Of a stretch of 30,755 nucleotides of DNA, positions 6,049-30,755 are shown in pieces (position 1 is the stretch's first letter; each line of letters opens with the position of its first letter). The translations under genes and the position numbers were made by a program. Location: positions 1-30,755 of IMG/VR virus record IMGVR_UViG_3300049255_000564. One strand, given 5' to 3'. The DNA comes from a virus. The notes under the pieces are model-generated. The model was not told the origin of the DNA. It saw only the letters and a list, made by a program, of their open reading frames with translations, and made no database searches.

Positions 6049-6411
6049 CTAAACCCCCCGTCGTACCGCGCCTCGCCTGGCCCCTCCCGCGTCTTCCTTC
6101 CAGCGGTTGTCGTGCAGACGGCACAGCGATCGCAGGTTGTCGAGGCGATCCGCGCCACCGTCCCGCCGCGACACGATGTGGTCCGCCACGATCGCAGGCC
6201 GCCCGCAGCCTTCCGCGACGCAGCGGAAGCCGTCACGCTTCAGGCAGGCGTGGCGCAAAGCTTTCCATTCGGCCGTGGAATAATAGGCGTCCGCAACCTT
6301 CGGCGGCGGCTTCGCCGCGCGCAGATCGGCGGCGCGCACCAGCGGCCCGAGGGTTTTCAGGGGTTTACTCCCGTTCCGCTCGCAGGCCTGTCGCCTGCTC
6401 CCAGCGCGCAA
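6049..6411 (-). CDS. HNH endonuclease next to the terminase
   Basis: An HNH nuclease of up to 120 residues. The motif region reads CVAEGCGRPAIVADHIVSRR then DNLRSLCRLHDNRW: the DH pair, the central Asn and the last His of a beta-beta-alpha-metal fold, with Cys residues that could bind zinc. HNH proteins beside terminases take part in packaging-site cleavage in HK97-like phages (family knowledge). The ATG at 6411 overlaps the methyltransferase by 47 bases and has no visible ribosome site. A CTG at 6360, preceded by GGGAG, would give a protein starting at LKTLGPLVRAAD and would remove the overlap; the true start is unsettled. Confidence 0.85.
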   Translation of the reverse strand: MRAGSRRQACERNGSKPLKTLGPLVRAADLRAAKPPPKVADAYYSTAEWKALRHACLKRDGFRCVAEGCGRPAIVADHIVSRRDGGADRLDNLRSLCRLHDNRWKEDAGGARRGAVRRGV

Positions 6412-7135
6412 TGACGCGGGCGCAATGTTGGGGATCGATCTCGATGGCGCAGCAGATCCGGCCTGAGTCTTCCGCCGCCATCAAGGTCGTTCCGGAACCC
6501 ACGAACGGATCGTAGACCGACTCGCCCGGCGCGCTATGGTTGAGGATCGGCCGCAGCATGCAGTCCAAAGGCTTCTGCGCCGAATGTCCGGTCTCGTTGC
6601 GTCGGTGCGGGATGTTCCACACCGTGACTTGCTTGCGATCGCCCGTCCATCCCGCCGTGCGGCCTTTGCGCACGGCGTAGAGACAGGGCTCGTGCCGCCA
6701 ATGGTAGTGGCCGCGCGAGATGATCAGCCGGCCCTTGTCCCAGACGATCTGCGAGCGCACGACGAAGCCGGCCGCGCCGAGCCCGCGCTCGACGGCGCCG
6801 TGATGCAGCGACGAGTGCCAGACATAGGCGACGTCGCCGGGAAAATGCGCCCAGGCCTCGCGCCAATCGGCGCGATCGTCGTTCCAGACCTTGCCGGTGG
6901 CGAGCTTGGCGCGCCTTTCGCCGACGAACGGATGCAACCGGGGATCGTCGCGCCAGCTCGGATCGTAGCCGACACCATAGGGCGGATCGGTCACCATCAG
7001 CCGCGGGCTAGCGCCGCGCAAAGCCTTGGCGACGATCGCCGGATCGGTGCAATCGCCGCAAACGAGGCGATGCCGCCCCAGCCGCCAAACGCGGCCATTA
7101 TCCTTAAAACGCTGATCGCGTTGAGTGTTCGGCAT
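6365..7135 (-). CDS. DNA adenine/cytosine-N4 methyltransferase, beta-class order
   Basis: A 256-residue site-specific DNA methyltransferase. The catalytic motif TDPPYGVGY (residues 49-57) comes before the SAM-binding motif DPFVGSGTTLMAA (about 214-226), the order of beta-class amino-methyltransferases. GHSAQKPLDCMLRPILNHS just before the latter is the usual lead-in. The short region between holds the target-recognition part. DPPY is compatible with N6-adenine or N4-cytosine; target sequence cannot be read. There is no restriction gene beside it, so it looks like an orphan phage enzyme that protects or marks phage DNA. Confidence 0.9.
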   Translation of the reverse strand: MPNTQRDQRFKDNGRVWRLGRHRLVCGDCTDPAIVAKALRGASPRLMVTDPPYGVGYDPSWRDDPRLHPFVGERRAKLATGKVWNDDRADWREAWAHFPGDVAYVWHSSLHHGAVERGLGAAGFVVRSQIVWDKGRLIISRGHYHWRHEPCLYAVRKGRTAGWTGDRKQVTVWNIPHRRNETGHSAQKPLDCMLRPILNHSAPGESVYDPFVGSGTTLMAAEDSGRICCAIEIDPQHCARVIARWEQATGLRAERE

Positions 7136-11565: not shown

Positions 11566-11609
11566 GTGATAATCCCTTATCACGAAACGGTTATTTTGGG
11601 AACATAACC
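11566..11609. promoter_or_regulatory. Two adjacent inverted repeats
   Basis: GTGATAA-N4-TTATCAC (11566-11583) and GGTTAT-N9-ATAACC (11589-11609) are perfect dyads in an AT-richer patch over the end of the HNH gene and just upstream of the TTG start at 11549. They could be operators or mark an internal promoter. No good -35/-10 pair was identified. Confidence 0.45.
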
Positions 11610-11963
11610 TGTCCCGGCGCGTTTCCCGCGGTCGAATTCCCGCGCGGCGGCTGTGCGAAAGGCCGCCATCGGGCGCTCGGCCCCGGCGATCGCGCGCATC
11701 GTCGCCTCCACCACCGCCGCGCGTGGATCGCCGTCGCGCCGCAGCCGCCGCAGCCATTCCGGCAAGGTCAGATCGCGCTTGTCCTGGTTGCATTCGACGC
11801 AGACGATCAGCAGGTTGCGCTCGACATGCAGGCCGCCGCGCGATTTCGGAATCATGTGCTCCAGCGAGGGATGGCGCCGCCCGCCCAGCGCCATGGCGTC
11901 GCCGCAATAGGGGCACGGCGTCCCCAGCCAGAACGCCCAGGCGCGGCCGCGCGAAAAATTCAC
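11580..11963 (-). CDS. HNH endonuclease family protein
   Basis: A 127-residue HNH protein. CPYCGDAMALGG and VCVECNQDK give two zinc-binding CxxC pairs; between them SLEHMIPKSRGG carries the catalytic EH(D/H) strand-turn and RNLLIV the central Asn. This is the CxxC-type HNH fold. The GTG start overlaps the upstream stop as GTGA, so it is coupled to the replication-like gene. It may nick phage or host DNA during replication or recombination; the target is unknown. This is the second HNH protein of the window and is not a close copy of the first. Confidence 0.85.
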   Translation of the reverse strand: MNFSRGRAWAFWLGTPCPYCGDAMALGGRRHPSLEHMIPKSRGGLHVERNLLIVCVECNQDKRDLTLPEWLRRLRRDGDPRAAVVEATMRAIAGAERPMAAFRTAAAREFDRGKRAGTGYVPKITVS

Positions 11964-13324
11964 GCCGCGCCCGCCTTCGCCCCGTCGCCGTAGCCGGGCG
12001 GGAATTCCGTCTCGAACCCCCAATGCCCGCCTCCCGCCTCCCACGGCACGCCGCGCCCGCCGTTCGCCCGGCGATACGCCTCCCACGCCCGCCCGGCCGG
12101 CGAATCGCGCTCGACCCGGACCACCGCCTTCGTCGGCGGCGGGGTCGCAAAGCCCGCAAACCTGCGCTCGGCGATGAAGGTCGCGAGATTGTGCGGGCTC
12201 GACAATTTCTGCCGGCGGATATGCTCGGCGATCGCCCCGATGCTCGCGGCGAAACGCCGCTGCTCCTCGGGCGAAAGCGCCGCGAACGCCGCCTCGGCGC
12301 GCGGCCGCGAGGCCGTGGGATCGCGCGGAAACCCGTTCCACACGCGCTCGAAATCCTGCCGCCAGGGCGGATCGCCCGGCGGGGTCGGGGGCGCAGACGC
12401 GGGGGACGCAGGCGCCGCTAGCGCGACCGCCGGCGGCCCGCGCGCCGCCTCGGCGGCCGCGCGCGCCGCGGCCAGGCGTTCGCCCGCGCGCCGCCGCACC
12501 CATTTCGCCAAAGTCGCCCAGAATTTCGGGCAATTCTCGCCCTTCGCCCGCCCCTGTTCGATCATCGCCAGCACGTCGCCGCGCGTCGCCGCGCCGCTGG
12601 CGACCAGCGCGGCGATCGGCCGGAAATCGTCGTCCAGCGCGAGCCTGAGCCCCCGCGCGTAGGCCCTGGCCTCCGCTTCGAACGGATCGCCGGTGCGCAG
12701 CGCGACGACGGTCGCCCCCGTCAGCTCGCCGAACGGCCGATTTTCGTCTCGCGAAGCGCGCGCCCCCGCCGGAGGAGGAGGAGGAGGTGATTCCTCCCTC
12801 CTTCCTCCTTCCTCCTCCCTCTGGCGCCCGAGTTCGGAACCAGTTCCGCCATTGGCGGAACCAGTTCCGCCTTTGGCGGAACCGGTTCGGAACTCGCCGG
12901 CGTCCTCGTCGAAGAGATCGTCCTCGTCCTCGGACCGCCGGCCGGCGCCGGCGCGCGGGCGCTGGCCATCGACGAAGCCGGCGTAGGCGCGCGATTCGGC
13001 GGTGTAGGGATGCACGTCCTTCGGCTTCTTGGGCCGCTGCCAGCGCACGAAATTGCGGATCACGCCGAACGTCCGCCCGTCGATCTCGAACCGCCGGATG
13101 AGGTCGACCCCGGCGAGGACCTCGAGCAGGTCGTCGACGCGCACCGGCGCGGCCGGCAGGATGCGCATCTTCAGGGTTAGCGGCTTCCACTCAAACGCGC
13201 CGGCGTCGTCGGCCTCGGTCCAGAGGCCGATCAGCAGCGGCACGGCGATCGGACAATCGAGGGTGAGCTGCGCGAAATTTTCGTCGGTGAACAGGCCCGG
13301 ATGGACGGAGCGTATGCGCGCCAT
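11960..13324 (-). CDS. Replication-initiation-like phage protein
   Basis: A 454-residue protein starting MARIRSVHPGLFTDENFAQL, a typical opening of phage replisome-organiser or helicase-loader-like proteins with an N-terminal winged-helix domain (residues 1-110, including WTEADDAGAFEWKPLTLKM). The middle is low-complexity: TGS(A/E) repeats, an acidic patch and a proline run. The last third (from about 200) has helical parts and the FERVWNGFPRDP segment seen in similar proteins. AGGGGAT lies 8 bases before the ATG at 13324. With no DnaA-like or polymerase gene here, it is the best candidate for phage replication initiation; the exact role is inferred. Confidence 0.7.
   Translation of the reverse strand: MARIRSVHPGLFTDENFAQLTLDCPIAVPLLIGLWTEADDAGAFEWKPLTLKMRILPAAPVRVDDLLEVLAGVDLIRRFEIDGRTFGVIRNFVRWQRPKKPKDVHPYTAESRAYAGFVDGQRPRAGAGRRSEDEDDLFDEDAGEFRTGSAKGGTGSANGGTGSELGRQREEEGGRREESPPPPPPAGARASRDENRPFGELTGATVVALRTGDPFEAEARAYARGLRLALDDDFRPIAALVASGAATRGDVLAMIEQGRAKGENCPKFWATLAKWVRRRAGERLAAARAAAEAARGPPAVALAAPASPASAPPTPPGDPPWRQDFERVWNGFPRDPTASRPRAEAAFAALSPEEQRRFAASIGAIAEHIRRQKLSSPHNLATFIAERRFAGFATPPPTKAVVRVERDSPAGRAWEAYRRANGGRGVPWEAGGGHWGFETEFPPGYGDGAKAGAA
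12771..12829. repeat. GGA/CCT hairpin-forming low-complexity tract
   Basis: GGAGGAGGAGGAGGAGG (12771-12787) is followed after a few bases by a pyrimidine tract made of CCT and CTT units (12793-12829). The two arms can pair imperfectly, and each is a pure purine or pyrimidine run. It encodes the Glu/Gly/Arg and poly-Pro linker of the replication-like protein. Confidence 0.75.
12836..12895. repeat. 21-bp direct repeats, 2.8 copies
   Basis: Units start GGAACCAGTTCCGCC at 12836 and 12857, with a degenerate third at 12878 (GGAACCGGTTCGGAACTC). Each unit contains the palindrome GGAAC(C/A)..GTTCC. In the protein this gives the TGSAKGG/TGSANGG repeats of the linker. Repeated sites inside a replication gene are worth comparing with origin iterons. 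Confidence 0.8.
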
Positions 13325-13325
13325 G

Positions 13326-13628
13326 TCAGGATCCCCTAAAAAAGTCGTCGGCGCGCCGCAGCACGGCGACGAGCCGCGCGGCGGCGTCCCGGCCGAGCCG
13401 AACGTCCAAAGGCGGCGCATCCGCGCGAGCCAGCTGAAAAGATGTTGGAAAGCCATGCGCGGCGGAATCGAGCGCGGCCAAAATCGTCGAGGTCACGACC
13501 ACCGGCGCGCAACGATCGTCGGGAAAGCCCATCTTGACGGGCGCGCCGCGCCTGACGTCGACGACGACGATGGTTTCGTCGTCGAGCTTCACCGTCTCGG
13601 CCCAGCCGACCTGCGAACCCTCGCTCAT
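13326..13628 (-). CDS. Hypothetical protein
   Basis: A 100-residue protein with an N-terminal beta pattern (ETVKLDDETIVVVDVRRGAP) and a helical end. It stops one base before the ATG of the replication-like gene and starts inside an ATGA overlap with a tiny upstream frame. Function unknown. Confidence 0.65.
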   Translation of the reverse strand: MSEGSQVGWAETVKLDDETIVVVDVRRGAPVKMGFPDDRCAPVVVTSTILAALDSAAHGFPTSFQLARADAPPLDVRLGRDAAARLVAVLRRADDFFRGS

Positions 13629-18918: not shown

Positions 18919-19158
18919 TCACGACGCGTCTCCGCTATCTTCCGCAGGGGAAACGGGCGACGAAGGCGCGGGCGCCTCGATGATCTCGCCGGCCTCGAGC
19001 CGGGCTTCGAGATCGTCGAGTAGGCGGCGCACCGGGCCGCGCTCCTCGTTCTCGCCGCGCTCGATGCGCGAAATCGTCGCCTGCGTCAGGCCGAGATAGG
19101 CGCCCATCTGGTGTTGGTGCCAATTCAACCGCTTGCGGATGCGTTCGAGCTTGGTCAT
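18919..19158 (-). CDS. Cro-like XRE-family HTH regulator
   Basis: A 79-residue protein with a textbook helix-turn-helix: RIRKRLNWHQHQMGAYLGLT then QATISRIERGENEERGPVRR. The C-terminus is acidic and proline-rich. It is divergent from the S24 repressor with three operators between them, the position of Cro. The ATG at 19158 starts 7 bases after the -10 box of its promoter (TTGACG-N17-TATGGG, 19193-19165), so the message could be leaderless. It would repress the repressor gene and tune early leftward transcription, as Cro does. Confidence 0.85.
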   Translation of the reverse strand: MTKLERIRKRLNWHQHQMGAYLGLTQATISRIERGENEERGPVRRLLDDLEARLEAGEIIEAPAPSSPVSPAEDSGDAS

Positions 19159-19164
19159 GCGCAA

Positions 19165-19193
19165 CCCATACAAAACGTATTCGTCGCCGTCAA
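19165..19193 (-). promoter_or_regulatory. Leftward early promoter
   Basis: On the minus strand, TTGACG (19193-19188), a 17-base spacer and TATGGG (19170-19165). It contains the first operator in its spacer and -10 end, so repressor binding would block it. The downstream ATG of the cro-like gene lies where transcription should start. Confidence 0.75.
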
Positions 19194-19220
19194 TACCCAT
19201 CGTATGGATACAAAACGTAT
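19168..19220. promoter_or_regulatory. Three repressor operators, ATAC-N5-GTAT
   Basis: ATACAAAACGTAT (19168-19180), ATACCCATCGTAT (19193-19205) and ATACAAAACGTAT (19208-19220). The outer two are identical; all share the ATAC/GTAT dyad. Spacing centre to centre is 25 and 15 bases. The third overlaps a TATAGC -10-like box (19218-19223) just before the repressor start. The layout mirrors a lambda-type right operator with three sites. Confidence 0.85.
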
Positions 19221-19230
19221 AGCGCGCCGC

Positions 19231-19878
19231 ATGACGGCGGACCAGAAAGCAGCGGCGCGCCTTCGGGAAGCCCGCGCCCAGGCCGGCTTCGAATCGTCCG
19301 CAGCCGCCGCGCGCGCGTTGGGCGTCAAGGAAGCCGGCTACACCCATCACGAGAACGGCCAGCGCGGCTTCGCGCACAAGGCCGCGTTCTACGCCGAGCG
19401 CTTCGGCGTCGCGGCCGATTGGCTGATGACCGGACGCGGCCCGAAGAGCGGCGCTTCAACCATCGAGATGAAGGGCGCGATCGGCGCCGGCGAGAAGGTC
19501 GAGCCGGCCGACGACCAGGCCGAGATCGCGCGCGGCGAATGGGTGGAGCTGCCCCGCCCGCGCGACGCGGAAGCCTTCGTCGTGCGCGGCGATTCAATGC
19601 AGCCGCGTTTCTTTCGCGGCGAAATTCTCATCTTCGACGCGCTGCCGACCCGGCCCGAGTCCAGGTTGGTCGGGCAGATCTGCCGCATCCGGCTCCCGGA
19701 CGGCGCTTCTTACGTGAAGGTTTTATTCGGCGCGGAGGGCGCTTGGCGTCTGCATTCCATGCGATTCGGCGAGCCGGTGATCGAGGTCGCCGAGATCAGA
19801 AGCGTCTATCGCTGGCGCGCCCTGCTGCCGCCCCGCCGTGCGCATGTCCAGGTGTTCGCGCCGCCGACGGACGCGTGA
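19231..19878 (+). CDS. Phage repressor, HTH plus S24 (LexA/CI-type) peptidase
   Basis: A 215-residue lysogeny repressor. Residues 5-65 are an HTH domain (LREARAQAGFESSAAAARAL, then GVKEAGYTHHENGQRG). The C-terminal domain is a self-cleaving S24 peptidase: cleavage site likely Ala86-Gly87 (KGAIGAGEKV), nucleophile Ser122 (VRGDSMQPRF) and general-base Lys163 (GASYVKVLFG). RecA-stimulated cleavage after DNA damage would induce the prophage (family knowledge). In-frame starts exist at 19111 and 19204, but they lie in or before the operators; ATG 19231 is preferred. It stands 8 bases after TATAGC, so the message may be leaderless, as for lambda cI. Confidence 0.92.
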   Translation: MTADQKAAARLREARAQAGFESSAAAARALGVKEAGYTHHENGQRGFAHKAAFYAERFGVAADWLMTGRGPKSGASTIEMKGAIGAGEKVEPADDQAEIARGEWVELPRPRDAEAFVVRGDSMQPRFFRGEILIFDALPTRPESRLVGQICRIRLPDGASYVKVLFGAEGAWRLHSMRFGEPVIEVAEIRSVYRWRALLPPRRAHVQVFAPPTDA

Positions 19879-19881
19879 GGC

Positions 19882-20766
19882 TCAGGCCAGCCGCAGCGGC
19901 CGGGACAGGTCGAGCTTGACCCGCCATTCCGGAAAACCGTTCTCGATCAGCGCGCGCGCCGCCAGCGCGCCGGGGCCGGCGAGCGCCGCCAATTCCTCGC
20001 CGAACGCCTTCGCGTCCTCGCGCGGGATGTAGCCGACCCGCCAGCCGCCGATGTCGACGGCGACGGCGTTGCGGTCATAGGAATTGTCGGGCTCGGCGTA
20101 GACCAGCGCATTCGTGCGGAAAAACACCGGCGCGTCGCGCCGCCCGCCGGCGATCTGGTCGAGCTCGATCTGCCTGTGGCTGCAGCCGGCGATCGCGAGC
20201 TCGTAAAGCCCCGGCCCGGACAACAACGGATATTCGGCGAGCGGCGGCGGGATTTCGTTGCGCCAATAGGCGTGGCCCTCGTTCGATTGGCGCTTCAGCA
20301 GCGGCGTCGGCGGACCGAGCGCCGCCGGCTCCGGCCCGCGCGCAGCTACGCCTTGCGCCGCTTCCTCCCGCAGGTCCTGCACGACGCGCCGGCTCTTGTG
20401 GGCGAGCGCGCCGATGATCTCCACGCGCCGCTGCGAATCGACGGCGGGCGCCCGCGAAATGCTTTCGAGCTCGCCGGCCCAGCCCGCGCTCTGGCGCTGC
20501 AGGGCGGCGAGCTGCTGGCGCAACAGCGCGTTCTCGCCGTCGTGGGACGAGGCCGCGACGGTGGTGTTGACGACCACCTGCTGCACGGGCGCCGCGGCGC
20601 TTCGGGTATTGCCCGTCAACGACCAGACGAAGGCGACGATCCAGCCGATGCCGGTCCAGCCCAGCAAAACGGTAAGCGCGAGGATCGCCGTGGCCGAGCG
20701 GTGACCGCGCGCCAACGCGATCATGGGCGGCGTGAAATAAAACACGACCGCGAACATAAGCGCCAT
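19882..20766 (-). CDS. Superinfection-immunity membrane domain fused to HIRAN domain
   Basis: A 294-residue protein. Residues 1-50 hold two membrane spans (ALMFAVVFYFTPPMIALARG and ILALTVLLGWTGIGWIVAFV) with the RGH and GWTGIGW features of the Imm superinfection-immunity family, which blocks DNA entry of related phages in T4 (family knowledge). A coiled coil follows (about 70-100). The last third (from about 188) fits a HIRAN domain, a DNA-end or single-strand binding fold (ELAIAGCSHRQ, NSYDRNAVAVDIGGWRVGYI). GAGGGG precedes the ATG at 20766. It is convergent with the repressor gene and inside the immunity region, as expected of a gene made in lysogens. Confidence 0.8.
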   Translation of the reverse strand: MALMFAVVFYFTPPMIALARGHRSATAILALTVLLGWTGIGWIVAFVWSLTGNTRSAAAPVQQVVVNTTVAASSHDGENALLRQQLAALQRQSAGWAGELESISRAPAVDSQRRVEIIGALAHKSRRVVQDLREEAAQGVAARGPEPAALGPPTPLLKRQSNEGHAYWRNEIPPPLAEYPLLSGPGLYELAIAGCSHRQIELDQIAGGRRDAPVFFRTNALVYAEPDNSYDRNAVAVDIGGWRVGYIPREDAKAFGEELAALAGPGALAARALIENGFPEWRVKLDLSRPLRLA

Positions 20767-20959
20767 GTCGCCCCCCTCGTCAGCTGCTCCCTGCGACCCA
20801 AAGTCGCGCGCGAAGCGCCGGCTGTAAATGGCGGCAAAGCGCCGCAATCGCGCATTTTCGCGCTGCTTTTTGCGGCGCCCGTCCACAGCCATACGATACG
20901 TATTGACAAGCGCGAATACAGAACGTATGGGTTGCCGTCCCCACCGGAGCCCACGCGCC
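20767..20959. promoter_or_regulatory. Rightward promoter with two operators
   Basis: Plus strand TTGACA (20903-20908), a 17-base spacer, TATGGG (20926-20931). Operators ATACGATACGTAT (20891-20903) and ATACAGAACGTAT (20916-20928) abut the -35 and cover the -10. They follow the same ATAC-N5-GTAT rule as the sites at 19168-19220, so one repressor should control both. The promoter feeds the long rightward operon. The rest of the gap (20767-20890) has only short GC hairpins. Confidence 0.85.
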
Positions 20960-21139
20960 ATGTCCGCTCCCCTCGTTCCCCAGCCCATCTGCGCCGAGGT
21001 GCGCGCGATCCACGCGCGCCTGCGCGCTCTCGACGTGCGCGCCGAGCGTCAGAACGCGCTGCGCCACGCCGAGCGCCTGCGCCGCCTGAGCGAGCGCCAG
21101 GCGGCGCGGTTGAAGGCGCAGGCGGAGGCGCGCGCGTGA
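20960..21139 (+). CDS. Small coiled-coil protein
   Basis: A 59-residue, highly basic, wholly helical protein (LRALDVRAERQNALRHAERL). It is the first gene after the rightward promoter, with CGGAG before the ATG at 20960, and its stop overlaps the GTG start of the ParB gene as GTGA. A DNA- or partner-binding role is possible but not shown. Confidence 0.65.
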   Translation: MSAPLVPQPICAEVRAIHARLRALDVRAERQNALRHAERLRRLSERQAARLKAQAEARA

Positions 21140-22935
21140 CCCGCCCCGCCCGCAAACCCGCGCCCTCGGCGCCGCCGGCGCCGATCCAGCCCGGCCCGGT
21201 GGTCGACGTCGCCTTGAGCGAGATCGTCGGCGTCGATCCCTGCAACGAGCGCCGCGCGCCGACCTCGGCCGAGAGCGTGCGCGATCTCGCCGCCGACATC
21301 GCCGCGCGCGGCCTCGTCAATCCGCTGATCCTGCGCGGCCTGCCCGGCCGCTACACGGTGCTGGTCGGCGGCCGGCGCTGGCGCGCGCTGACGGCGATCT
21401 TCCCCAGCCATCAATCGACCCGCGCCCGCGTCTTCGCCGGCGACGACGAGGCCGCGGCCGCGCTGTCGCGCGCGGAAAACATCGAGCGCGTCGACCCGCA
21501 TCCGCTGGAAGAAGCCGACAGCGTCGCTTTGTCGGCCGAGCGCGGCGGCGTCGCCGCGGTGGCGCGCGCGCAGGGCAAGTCCGAGCGCTGGGTGCGCGAG
21601 CGCATCGCGCTGTCGCGCCTGCCCGACGCCGCGCGCAAACTTTGGTTGGAGGGCGCAATCGCCGCGCCGCAGGCGCGCGCGCTGGCCGCCTTCGAGCCGG
21701 CCGCCGCGCAGGCTCTGCTCGACCGCGCCAACGCGCGCGCGATCCTCGCCGACCCCCGCGCGATTCGCGCCGCGCTCGCGCCGCGCGGCGTTCCCGCCGA
21801 CGCGGCGGCCGCGCGCTATGTCGGGGTCGACGCCTATGTCGCCGCCGGCGGCGCGCTGCACGAGGACCTGTTCGACGGCCCGACCTTGCTGCTCGACGCG
21901 GAGCTGCTGTTGCGCCTCGAGCGCGCGCGCCTCGCCGCCGAGGCCGACAGGATCTGCGAGGCCGAGGGCTGGGGCCATGCCCTGTTCGAACCCGGCGAGG
22001 CGACCCGCCGCGTCGCGCCGAAATTTCTGGAAGACGAGATCGAGGCGCTTGAGGCGTACGAAGGCGCCGGCGATCACGTCCAGGCGGCCGAGATCGTGCG
22101 GCGCGCGTCGCTGCGCGCGGTTTCCCAGTCCGAGCGCGCCCGATATGGCGTCTATGTCGGCCTCGACAGCGAGGGCCGGCTCGACATCGAGCGCGGCGTG
22201 ATCGTCGACGGCGGCGCCATCCCGGCGCCGGCTACGCCCGTCGACGAAGCCGGCGGCTCCCACCCCGGCCCGGCGGCCTCCGAAATCGATGCAGGCTCGG
22301 AGGCCGCCGAAGACGTTCCCGCTGCGCGCGCCCCTCGCGCGGCGTCGCCGGCGCGCGCGGCGGAATTGTCCGCCGAGGCGCGCCGGCATCTGGATCGCGC
22401 CGTCTCGCGCGCCGCCGCCGAGCTGATCGGCGAAGCCACGGCCGGCGACGCGATGCGCGTGGCGCTCGCCGCGCTGGTCGCCAAATCCACGGCTTTGCGT
22501 CTGTCGATGGAGAAGGGGCCGGGCGGTCGCGGGCATGCGCTGCTGAGCAGGCTCGCGAAACTCGATTTCGCGCCCGCTTTGGTGGAGGCGGCCCTGGCCG
22601 ACGACGACGCGGTCGAGAACGCCTTCGCCGAGCTGATCGCCAGCGCGGTCGATGTCCGGCGCGGCGGCGACGGCGAAGCGCGCGGCCTGTTCAAGTTTCT
22701 GGCGGCGATCGACGATGCCGAGACCGTGCGGCTGCGCTTCTCGAATCACTTCGATTACGCCGCCTATTTCGCCGCCGCCGGCCGCGCCGCCTGCCTCGAC
22801 GCCTTGCGCGCCTGCGGCGGCAAGGCCGCCGAATCCGAGCGCGCCTGGATGAAGGACGAGCAGCTCGCCGAACAGGCCGCGCTGATGGCCCGCGCCGCGC
22901 GCTGGGCGCCCGAGTTTCTGGGGGTGAACGCATGA
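21136..22935 (+). CDS. ParB-family partition-like protein
   Basis: A 599-residue ParB/RepB-type protein. The CTP-binding domain shows DLAADIAARGLVNPLILRGL and the box VLVGGRRWRALTAI (residues about 78-91), then SRAENIERVDPHPLEEADSV. A helix-turn-helix follows (ARAQGKSERWVRERIALSRL, about 140-160). Residues 180-400 are a long variable region and the C-terminus is helical. ParB binds parS and spreads on DNA. No ParA is present, so plasmid-style partition is doubtful; such orphan ParBs in phages may act in replication or regulation. Start is GTG, fixed by the overlap and by the domain start. Confidence 0.88.
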   Translation: MTRPARKPAPSAPPAPIQPGPVVDVALSEIVGVDPCNERRAPTSAESVRDLAADIAARGLVNPLILRGLPGRYTVLVGGRRWRALTAIFPSHQSTRARVFAGDDEAAAALSRAENIERVDPHPLEEADSVALSAERGGVAAVARAQGKSERWVRERIALSRLPDAARKLWLEGAIAAPQARALAAFEPAAAQALLDRANARAILADPRAIRAALAPRGVPADAAAARYVGVDAYVAAGGALHEDLFDGPTLLLDAELLLRLERARLAAEADRICEAEGWGHALFEPGEATRRVAPKFLEDEIEALEAYEGAGDHVQAAEIVRRASLRAVSQSERARYGVYVGLDSEGRLDIERGVIVDGGAIPAPATPVDEAGGSHPGPAASEIDAGSEAAEDVPAARAPRAASPARAAELSAEARRHLDRAVSRAAAELIGEATAGDAMRVALAALVAKSTALRLSMEKGPGGRGHALLSRLAKLDFAPALVEAALADDDAVENAFAELIASAVDVRRGGDGEARGLFKFLAAIDDAETVRLRFSNHFDYAAYFAAAGRAACLDALRACGGKAAESERAWMKDEQLAEQAALMARAARWAPEFLGVNA

Positions 22936-29402: not shown

Positions 29403-29656
29403 CCCGCGCGTCGCTGATCGAGCCGCAGGATCGCCTCGGCCTCAGCCGCGAGGAGGCGGCCAATTATATCGGCGTCGGCCACACCACTTTCGACAAGCTC
29501 GTCGCCGACGGACGCATGCCGCGCCCCAAGCTGATCAACACGCGCCGCGTCTGGTCGCGCCGCGCGCTCGAGGAGGCGTTTGCGCGATTGCCGGAGGAAG
29601 CGCAGGATGCGCCGAACGGCCCCGATTCCGACGTCTGGGGCGATTGCCATGTCTGA
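29399..29656 (+). CDS. Excisionase-like helix-turn-helix protein
   Basis: An 85-residue protein with a MerR/AlpA-type winged helix: RLGLSREEAANYIGVGHTTF then DKLVADGRMPRPKLINTRRV and WSRRALEEAFARL. This matches HTH_17 excisionase or AlpA-like proteins, which bend DNA at attachment sites or regulate the integrase. It lies directly upstream of the integrase with an 8-base overlap, the classic place for a recombination directionality factor. Confidence 0.82.
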   Translation: MTRASLIEPQDRLGLSREEAANYIGVGHTTFDKLVADGRMPRPKLINTRRVWSRRALEEAFARLPEEAQDAPNGPDSDVWGDCHV

Positions 29657-30755
29657 GGCGCCCGTGAAGCTGCCGTTCCTGTTCACTGACCGCGACCGCC
29701 ACGGCAACGTCAGGCATTACGTGCGCCGCAAGGGCGTCGGCAAGAAGCGCCTGCGCGCCGCGCCGGGCACGCCCGAGTTCATCGACGAATATCGCGACGC
29801 GCTCGCCGCCCTCGACAGCGCCGCGAAGACGCCGAGCGCCGATCCGATCACCTTGCGCTGGCTCGTCCGGGAATTCGAGGGCAGCCACAGGTTTCTCAAG
29901 GTGACGCCGCGCGAGCAACGCAACCGGCATCTGCTCGTGCGCGCTATTCTGGAGGAGGAGACGAAGCCGGGCTCCGGCGTTCGCCTCGGCGACTGCCCGC
30001 TGAAGCGTTTCGAGGCAACTCACGTGCGCCTGATCCGCGACCGCAAGATGGCGACGCCGTCGGCCGCCAACCATCGGCTGTCCAACCTCAGCCTGATCTT
30101 CTCCTGGGGCGTCGAAGAGCGGCGCGAGCACGTGAAGACCAATCCCTGTCTCGGCGTGCGCCCGCTCGAATACAAGAGCGAGGGATGGCACACGTGGACG
30201 GAGGCGGAGATCGAGGCCTACGAAACCCGCCATCCCCTGGGCAGCCAGGCGAGGCTGGCGCTCGATCTGCTTCTCTACACCGGCGCGCGGCGCGGCGACG
30301 TCGTCGCCCTCGGCCCGAAATCGCTGACCCGGATCGTCAACCCCGTCACCCGGCAGCCGGAGACCTGGTTGCAGTTCAAGCCAGGCAAGACCTCGAAATC
30401 GACAGGCAAGGTGGTCGTGCTGCCGGTCCTGCCCGAGCTTAGCGCCTCGATCGCCGCGACCCCGCACGGCCTCGCGACCTTCCTGATCAACAGCTACGGC
30501 AAGCCGCACGCCAGCGGCGATTCCTTCGCCAACTGGTTCAAGGACCGCGTCGTCGAGGCCGACCTGCCCGAGCACTGCTCGCCGCACGGCCTGCGCAAAG
30601 CCGGCGCTTGCCGCGCCGCCGACAATGGCGCGACCGAAAAGCAAATGATGGCGATCTTCGGCTGGACCACCTCCCGCCTCGCCGCCCACTACGCGCAGAA
30701 GGCCGACGACATGAAGCTGGCGGCCTCGGCCGTCCACGTTCTGACAAAAGCGTAG
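29649..30755 (+). CDS. int: Phage integrase, tyrosine recombinase
   Basis: A 368-residue integrase. The N-terminal arm-binding part (residues 8-35, FLFTDRDRHGNVRHYVRRKG) and core-binding domain (about 65-170) precede the catalytic domain. Active-site residues: Arg214 (YTGARRGDVVAL), Lys247 or 250 (KPGKTSKSTGKVVVLP), His313 and Arg316 (SPHGLRKAG), Trp339 in the second His position (FGWTTSRLAAHYAQ), and Tyr348. Trp there is a known variant. The gene ends with the last base of the window, so the attachment site should lie just beyond. It integrates and, with the excisionase-like protein, excises the prophage. Confidence 0.93.
   Translation: MSEAPVKLPFLFTDRDRHGNVRHYVRRKGVGKKRLRAAPGTPEFIDEYRDALAALDSAAKTPSADPITLRWLVREFEGSHRFLKVTPREQRNRHLLVRAILEEETKPGSGVRLGDCPLKRFEATHVRLIRDRKMATPSAANHRLSNLSLIFSWGVEERREHVKTNPCLGVRPLEYKSEGWHTWTEAEIEAYETRHPLGSQARLALDLLLYTGARRGDVVALGPKSLTRIVNPVTRQPETWLQFKPGKTSKSTGKVVVLPVLPELSASIAATPHGLATFLINSYGKPHASGDSFANWFKDRVVEADLPEHCSPHGLRKAGACRAADNGATEKQMMAIFGWTTSRLAAHYAQKADDMKLAASAVHVLTKA

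Follow-up and report, generated by a model that had tools for sequence, protein, structure and literature searches.

The virus record IMGVR_UViG_3300049255_000564 from IMG/VR, whose 30,755 bases (positions 1 to 30,755) make up the window analyzed here, carries on its minus strand an open reading frame of 294 codons in which an Imm_superinfect membrane hairpin is fused to a HIRAN domain. The fusion is real and is unique in its exact form, and it belongs to a recurrent architecture, a HIRAN domain behind an N-terminal membrane anchor, that is apparently undescribed; a literature search with thin coverage of subscription journals found nothing naming both HIRAN and Imm domains. We propose, with slightly less than even confidence, that the protein would be made in lysogens, reside in the inner membrane, engage incoming phage DNA, and act in superinfection exclusion. 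The gene and the parts of its product are as follows.

19882 to 20766, minus strand: Imm-HIRAN fusion gene, 294 amino acids (open frame, ATG start, Pfam and PHROG matches)
20617 to 20742, minus strand: Imm_superinfect two-helix membrane hairpin, residues 9 to 50 (PF14373, model helices, hydropathy)
20344 to 20532, minus strand: helical linker, residues 79 to 141, with helices at 79 to 105 and 111 to 141 (AlphaFold2, pLDDT about 75 to 83)
19885 to 20226, minus strand: HIRAN domain, residues 181 to 294 (PF08797, family profile, fold match)

A ribosome-binding-like stretch, GAGGGGGG, lies upstream of the ATG. An earlier note, made from the letters of the window, had described a membrane superinfection-immunity domain joined by a coiled coil to a HIRAN fold. 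The first of these domains was confirmed by PF14373, which matches residues 9 to 50 over all 42 profile positions (E value of 1.9e-15; 56.9 bits against a cutoff of 27.9), and by the agreement of PHROG 1039, "immunity to superinfection," over residues 1 to 71 (E value of 9.6e-21). The AlphaFold2 model places N-terminal helices at residues 2 to 19 and 25 to 52, and the hydropathy peaks fall at residues 1 to 19 and 28 to 46; the safest reading of residues 1 to 56 is that they form a membrane anchor. What stands of the coiled coil is the pair of long predicted helices listed above. The HIRAN assignment was marginal in the single-sequence Pfam scan, in which PF08797 matched residues 224 to 258 (E value of 3.7e-5) at 23.9 bits, below the cutoff of 24.7, and it became firm with a profile built from 46 relatives, which matches the HIRAN domain of HLTF in the PDB (E value of 4e-7), and with the fold. 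Residues 181 to 294 are modeled mostly at a pLDDT of 92 to 97, and the best solved structures for the modeled segment are lp_0118 and the HLTF HIRAN domain, with Rad5 also listed (VIA Z scores of 9.2 to 3k2y over 95 residues and 7.4 to 4xzf over 92 residues). PHROG 18569 also matches residues 195 to 256. A chance weak match was considered as an explanation for the HIRAN assignment and was rejected on the strength of the relatives' profile and the fold matches to solved HIRAN domains.

The HIRAN part falls within a subfamily marked by the signature [YF][DE]F[DE][IV]VGESxYQ. Scans of viral and genomic loci yielded 63 distinct members with a score of at least 85, including some that are not independent, such as the near copies L096 and L049. 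An N-terminal segment with transmembrane hydropathy, of one or two spans, is present in 33 of the 63, and a start of MGLLxWLFG or close to it is present in 7; the remainder have no visible anchor. Among the single-span members the charge pattern puts the HIRAN domain in the cytoplasm in 20 of 22 cases. The tethering that the earlier note had envisaged is thus supported by its recurrence with unrelated anchors. The subfamily was found in 5 of 385 sampled genomes of one class, seed genome included, and this occurrence of about 1% fits accessory genes.

Two genomic positions recur. A phage repressor gene, recognized by Pfam S24 or HTH matches, lies directly upstream on the same strand in 17 of the 59 members for which upstream sequence was available (L011, L012, L014, L045, L048, L049, L053, L096, L098, L099, L100, L107, L111, L112, L113, L114, and L127, with L014 at the cutoff and L049 counted via its near copy L096), and 9 of these 17 have a transmembrane segment. 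The repressor stop overlaps the HIRAN start in L111 and L114, and the HIRAN and HTH repressor genes of a Nostoc phage converge across a short gap, as in the window. The HIRAN proteins of L111:3210-4360 and L114:1574-2703 have no membrane segment and represent a soluble branch of the subfamily that is tied to repressors. The second recurrent place is the tail-gene cluster, where tape-measure genes adjoin the HIRAN gene (L116, L123, L135, and L138) or tail tube genes are nearby (L129); L124 and L043 are also among the membrane-anchored HIRAN genes beside tape-measure or tail tube genes. In one viral contig (L220:2064-2485), HIRAN and Imm are separate adjacent genes that follow a gene for a tail assembly chaperone. 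That the two parts occur fused in the window and split in this contig suggests that they work together, although the split form is a single case. The two L220 genes are each preceded by a similar 41-nucleotide leader that contains the inverted repeat CCGTTAC...GTAACGG.

The fusion gene occupies an immunity region whose elements are listed here; the promoter entries are predictions.

18919 to 19159, minus strand: Cro-like HTH gene (HTH_3, E value of 9e-8)
19165 to 19193, minus strand: PR-like promoter, TTGACG-17-TATGGG, toward the cro-like gene (from sequence)
19168 to 19180, no strand: repressor/cro operator 1, ATACAAAACGTAT, exact ATACN5GTAT
19193 to 19205, no strand: repressor/cro operator 2, ATACCCATCGTAT, exact ATACN5GTAT
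19208 to 19220, no strand: repressor/cro operator 3, ATACAAAACGTAT, exact ATACN5GTAT
19231 to 19878, plus strand: cI/LexA-like repressor gene (PF00717 Peptidase_S24, E value of 4e-7; HTH_19)
20888 to 20916, minus strand: promoter-like TTCGCG-17-TATGGC, toward the fusion gene (placed as the repressor's; 47-bp inverted duplicate)
20891 to 20903, no strand: second-cluster operator, ATACGATACGTAT, exact ATACN5GTAT
20903 to 20931, plus strand: PL-like promoter, TTGACA-17-TATGGG, toward the ParB operon (from sequence; duplicate of the cro promoter)
20916 to 20928, no strand: second-cluster operator, ATACAGAACGTAT, exact ATACN5GTAT

Exact ATACN5GTAT sites occur five times in the window, against a chance expectation of 0.01, and none falls outside 19168 to 19220 (three sites, between the repressor and the cro-like gene) and 20891 to 20928 (two sites, upstream of the fusion gene), so that the placement of the gene between two operator clusters, as previously claimed, is borne out. 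A 47-bp inverted repeat (19161 to 19207 and 20889 to 20935) holds two of the sites in each copy. The element facing the fusion gene has its counterpart in the other copy in TTCGTC-17-TATGGA, which faces the repressor and sits at the equivalent place with respect to the operators; only the repressor side has the third operator. From this placement, the inward element may be an active promoter. The repressor and fusion genes are convergent and 3 bases apart, and the outward PR- and PL-like promoters together with the inward elements therefore make them the two genes inside a lambda-like immunity region, with the fusion gene divergent from the ParB-like operon and outside it. The junction of the two convergent genes (19878 to 19882) has no reported intrinsic terminator, and their transcripts may therefore overlap and interfere. 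The claim that the protein is made in lysogens gains indirect support from the relatives behind repressor genes and from the inward promoter-like element placed as the repressor's. The phage itself is probably temperate, because it has an integrase-like gene (29580 to 30755) as well as a portal, a terminase, and a head gene (PHROG).

The HIRAN domain of HLTF binds 3'-OH ends, and the R71E substitution abolishes this binding (PMC11366124); prokaryotic HIRAN domains have been proposed to sense phage DNA ends in HipL/HipN kinase systems (PMC8262856). Members of the subfamily share N228 and A234 without exception and D231, V244, and G245 almost without exception, and the fusion protein keeps N228, Y230, and D231, which correspond by alignment to the NPYD core of HLTF. 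By analogy, we infer that the subfamily HIRAN domain may bind DNA ends. In the mechanism that we propose, the Imm-type two-helix hairpin would anchor the protein in the inner membrane, the helical linker would space or pair the protein, and the cytoplasmic HIRAN domain would thereby be held at the membrane. Expression in the lysogen would most likely come from the inward promoter beside the second operator cluster. On encountering the DNA of a second phage as it comes in, the protein would bind either the DNA end or an intermediate of entry and would halt the entry or early use of this DNA, with superinfection exclusion as the outcome.

A number of observations weigh against this proposal. No second copy of the full Imm-HIRAN fusion was found in phage, plasmid, viral-contig, or genome-contig searches, so that the survey of other prophages for which the earlier note had called yielded the exact fusion nowhere else in the collections searched. 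Single-sequence scans returned no relatives in viral or genome contigs. Of 80 viral Imm loci, one has a HIRAN gene as a neighbor and none has a fusion; none turned up either in about 1,180 Pseudomonadota genomes, where rare fusions could be missed since only the best few candidates were scored. The HLTF Arg71 position corresponds, by motif anchoring, to a conserved Ser in the subfamily, and the fusion protein departs at four near-invariant positions (E195C, Y198R, G276N, and G282R); because of these differences, the case for end binding is weaker for the window copy. Its HIRAN domain is also slightly acidic (13 K+R and 15 D+E). In the fusion protein the hairpin loop RGHR outweighs its flanks in positive charge, and charge therefore does not settle the topology. 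Eight of the 17 relatives behind repressor genes lack a transmembrane segment, and anchoring is therefore not universal at the repressor position. A sigma-70 consensus scan reported no promoter, the element facing the fusion gene included. The Pfam scan of the fusion protein gave two matches only, with no nuclease or other effector domain and specifically without the GIY-YIG nuclease and DUF4041 of SNIPE; a block of entry or first use, or else a membrane alarm of the Rex type, must therefore be assumed. An NCBIfam scan gave no match, and a PADLOC scan gave weak matches only (PDC-M03B over the HIRAN core, E value of 0.011), with no KwaA/KwaB match reported. The name of PF14373 is not enough to establish a role in exclusion, because in other bacterial and phage proteins hairpins of this type are followed by a zinc ribbon, a SHOCT-like tail, a TonB-type domain, or no further part (tails named by eye or from record annotation).

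The domain name was accordingly rejected as proof of exclusion, since the domain anchors other proteins in ordinary bacteria and phages. Among such proteins, one encoded on a Methylobacterium plasmid (L008:2471-3259) combines an Imm hairpin with a zinc ribbon and a TonB-type C terminus, and a single genome (L062/L074/L077/L078) encodes two Imm-type hairpins in one long acidic-repeat protein and two more in neighboring proteins.

Other explanations accommodate parts of the same evidence. The fusion gene lies at the place of rexAB in lambda, between outward PR- and PL-like promoters, and it may be that the protein is a one-chain alarm of the Rex type, in which HIRAN senses the DNA of an infecting phage, either its ends or its replication intermediates, whereupon the hairpin disturbs the membrane and the cell stops or dies before phage release. 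The HIRAN relatives in repressor operons, the occurrence of both parts as separate neighbors in L220, and the HipL/HipN proposal (PMC8262856) are all compatible with such an alarm. However, the anchors of the relatives vary widely, many being single-span or of the MGLLxWLFG type, a variety more in keeping with an anchor than with a channel, and we regard the alarm as unlikely. Less probable again is a membrane tether for the phage's own replication or packaging intermediates that plays no part against other phages. The divergent orientation of the gene and the ParB-like operon, the action of HIRAN in fork remodeling in eukaryotes (PMC11366124), and the frequent role of Imm_superinfect as a mere anchor would suit a tether of this kind, but the relatives are concentrated in repressor operons and among tail genes rather than with replication genes, and the fusion gene stands outside the ParB operon.

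The two upstream operators could repress the fusion gene, and T4 Imm works during lytic infection (PMC6832632), so that an exclusion protein made early after infection and silent in the lysogen can also be envisaged. This is improbable in our estimation: the strong promoter of the second cluster points away from the gene, the element that does face it corresponds to that of the repressor, its side lacks the third operator, and HIRAN relatives are joined to repressor genes. The loss of four near-invariant residues raises the further idea of a decaying or repurposed HIRAN protein whose Imm hairpin is the sole active part, but the frame is unbroken, the core residues N228, D231, and G245 remain in place, and the modeled domain has the high pLDDT given above, all of which make decay very improbable. 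Exclusion of incoming DNA by a lysogen-made membrane protein is the reading that we prefer.

Elsewhere in the window, the early operon contains a gene for a ParB-like protein (21136 to 22935, plus strand) for which neither 50,697 phage records nor a pattern search of viral contigs gave a match. Megablast of the region matched no phage, and single-sequence scans of the collections found no relatives of the ParB-like protein or the repressor; the window phage is therefore without a close relative in the collections searched. An N6_N4 DNA methylase gene (6365 to 7135, minus strand) lies upstream of the terminase gene, and a replication-initiator-like frame (PHROG 1408; 11580 to 13456, minus strand) overlaps a second long frame, which has an HNH endonuclease domain at its end.

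A broader possibility, which we hold as doubtful, is that the subfamily represents an undescribed and widespread class of prophage proteins that position HIRAN at the inner membrane via interchangeable anchors, recognize the end of entering DNA, and exclude phages without a nuclease; the window protein would be the version with a T4 Imm-type hairpin. Prokaryotic HIRAN domains have been called uncharacterized (PMC11090510), and action of the family at the membrane would provide a testable role for them. If this is true, a cell could distinguish entering phage DNA from its own DNA by place and by a free end, without sequence recognition or modification, and the occurrence of HIRAN genes in repressor operons and tail-gene clusters would be explained.

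Known systems share individual features with the fusion. T4 Imm shares the PF14373 membrane domain but has neither the linker nor a HIRAN domain, and its phage is lytic. HLTF, Rad5, and the bacterial HipL/HipN proteins share the fold and the NxYD core of the HIRAN domain (PMC8262856), but these are soluble helicases, kinases, or antitoxins, and none named in that source has an Imm-hairpin anchor. SNIPE is membrane bound, has diverse N-terminal anchors, and cuts phage DNA during injection (PMC13190303), which makes it the nearest experimentally tested precedent for the proposed mechanism. Its variable N-terminal anchor is followed by a cytoplasmic DNA-binding region, an arrangement that the fusion protein and its relatives may share; it differs in having DUF4041 and a GIY-YIG nuclease where the fusion protein has HIRAN and, in the Pfam scan, no nuclease domain. 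Kiwa is a membrane-embedded defense with a DNA-related part, but it is a two-gene KwaA/KwaB system, unlike the single fusion protein. Several HIRAN relatives resemble HK97 gp15 in its position in the tail cluster; to our knowledge, neither gp15 nor P22 SieA has a HIRAN or DNA-binding domain, and the likeness to them is drawn without sequence comparison. Both are named as inner-membrane proteins by which prophages block DNA injection and so exclude phages; in HK97 and TP-J34, blocks of this kind are overcome by changes in the tape measure (PMC10883804). The likeness of the fusion gene to rexAB is one of position and of a proposed pairing of DNA sensor with membrane part, likewise drawn without sequence comparison. 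RexA and RexB of lambda, encoded within the immunity region that the outward PR and PL enclose, consist of a DNA sensor and a membrane part. There, two proteins are encoded codirectionally from the repressor promoter, whereas here a single protein is encoded by a gene convergent with that of the repressor.
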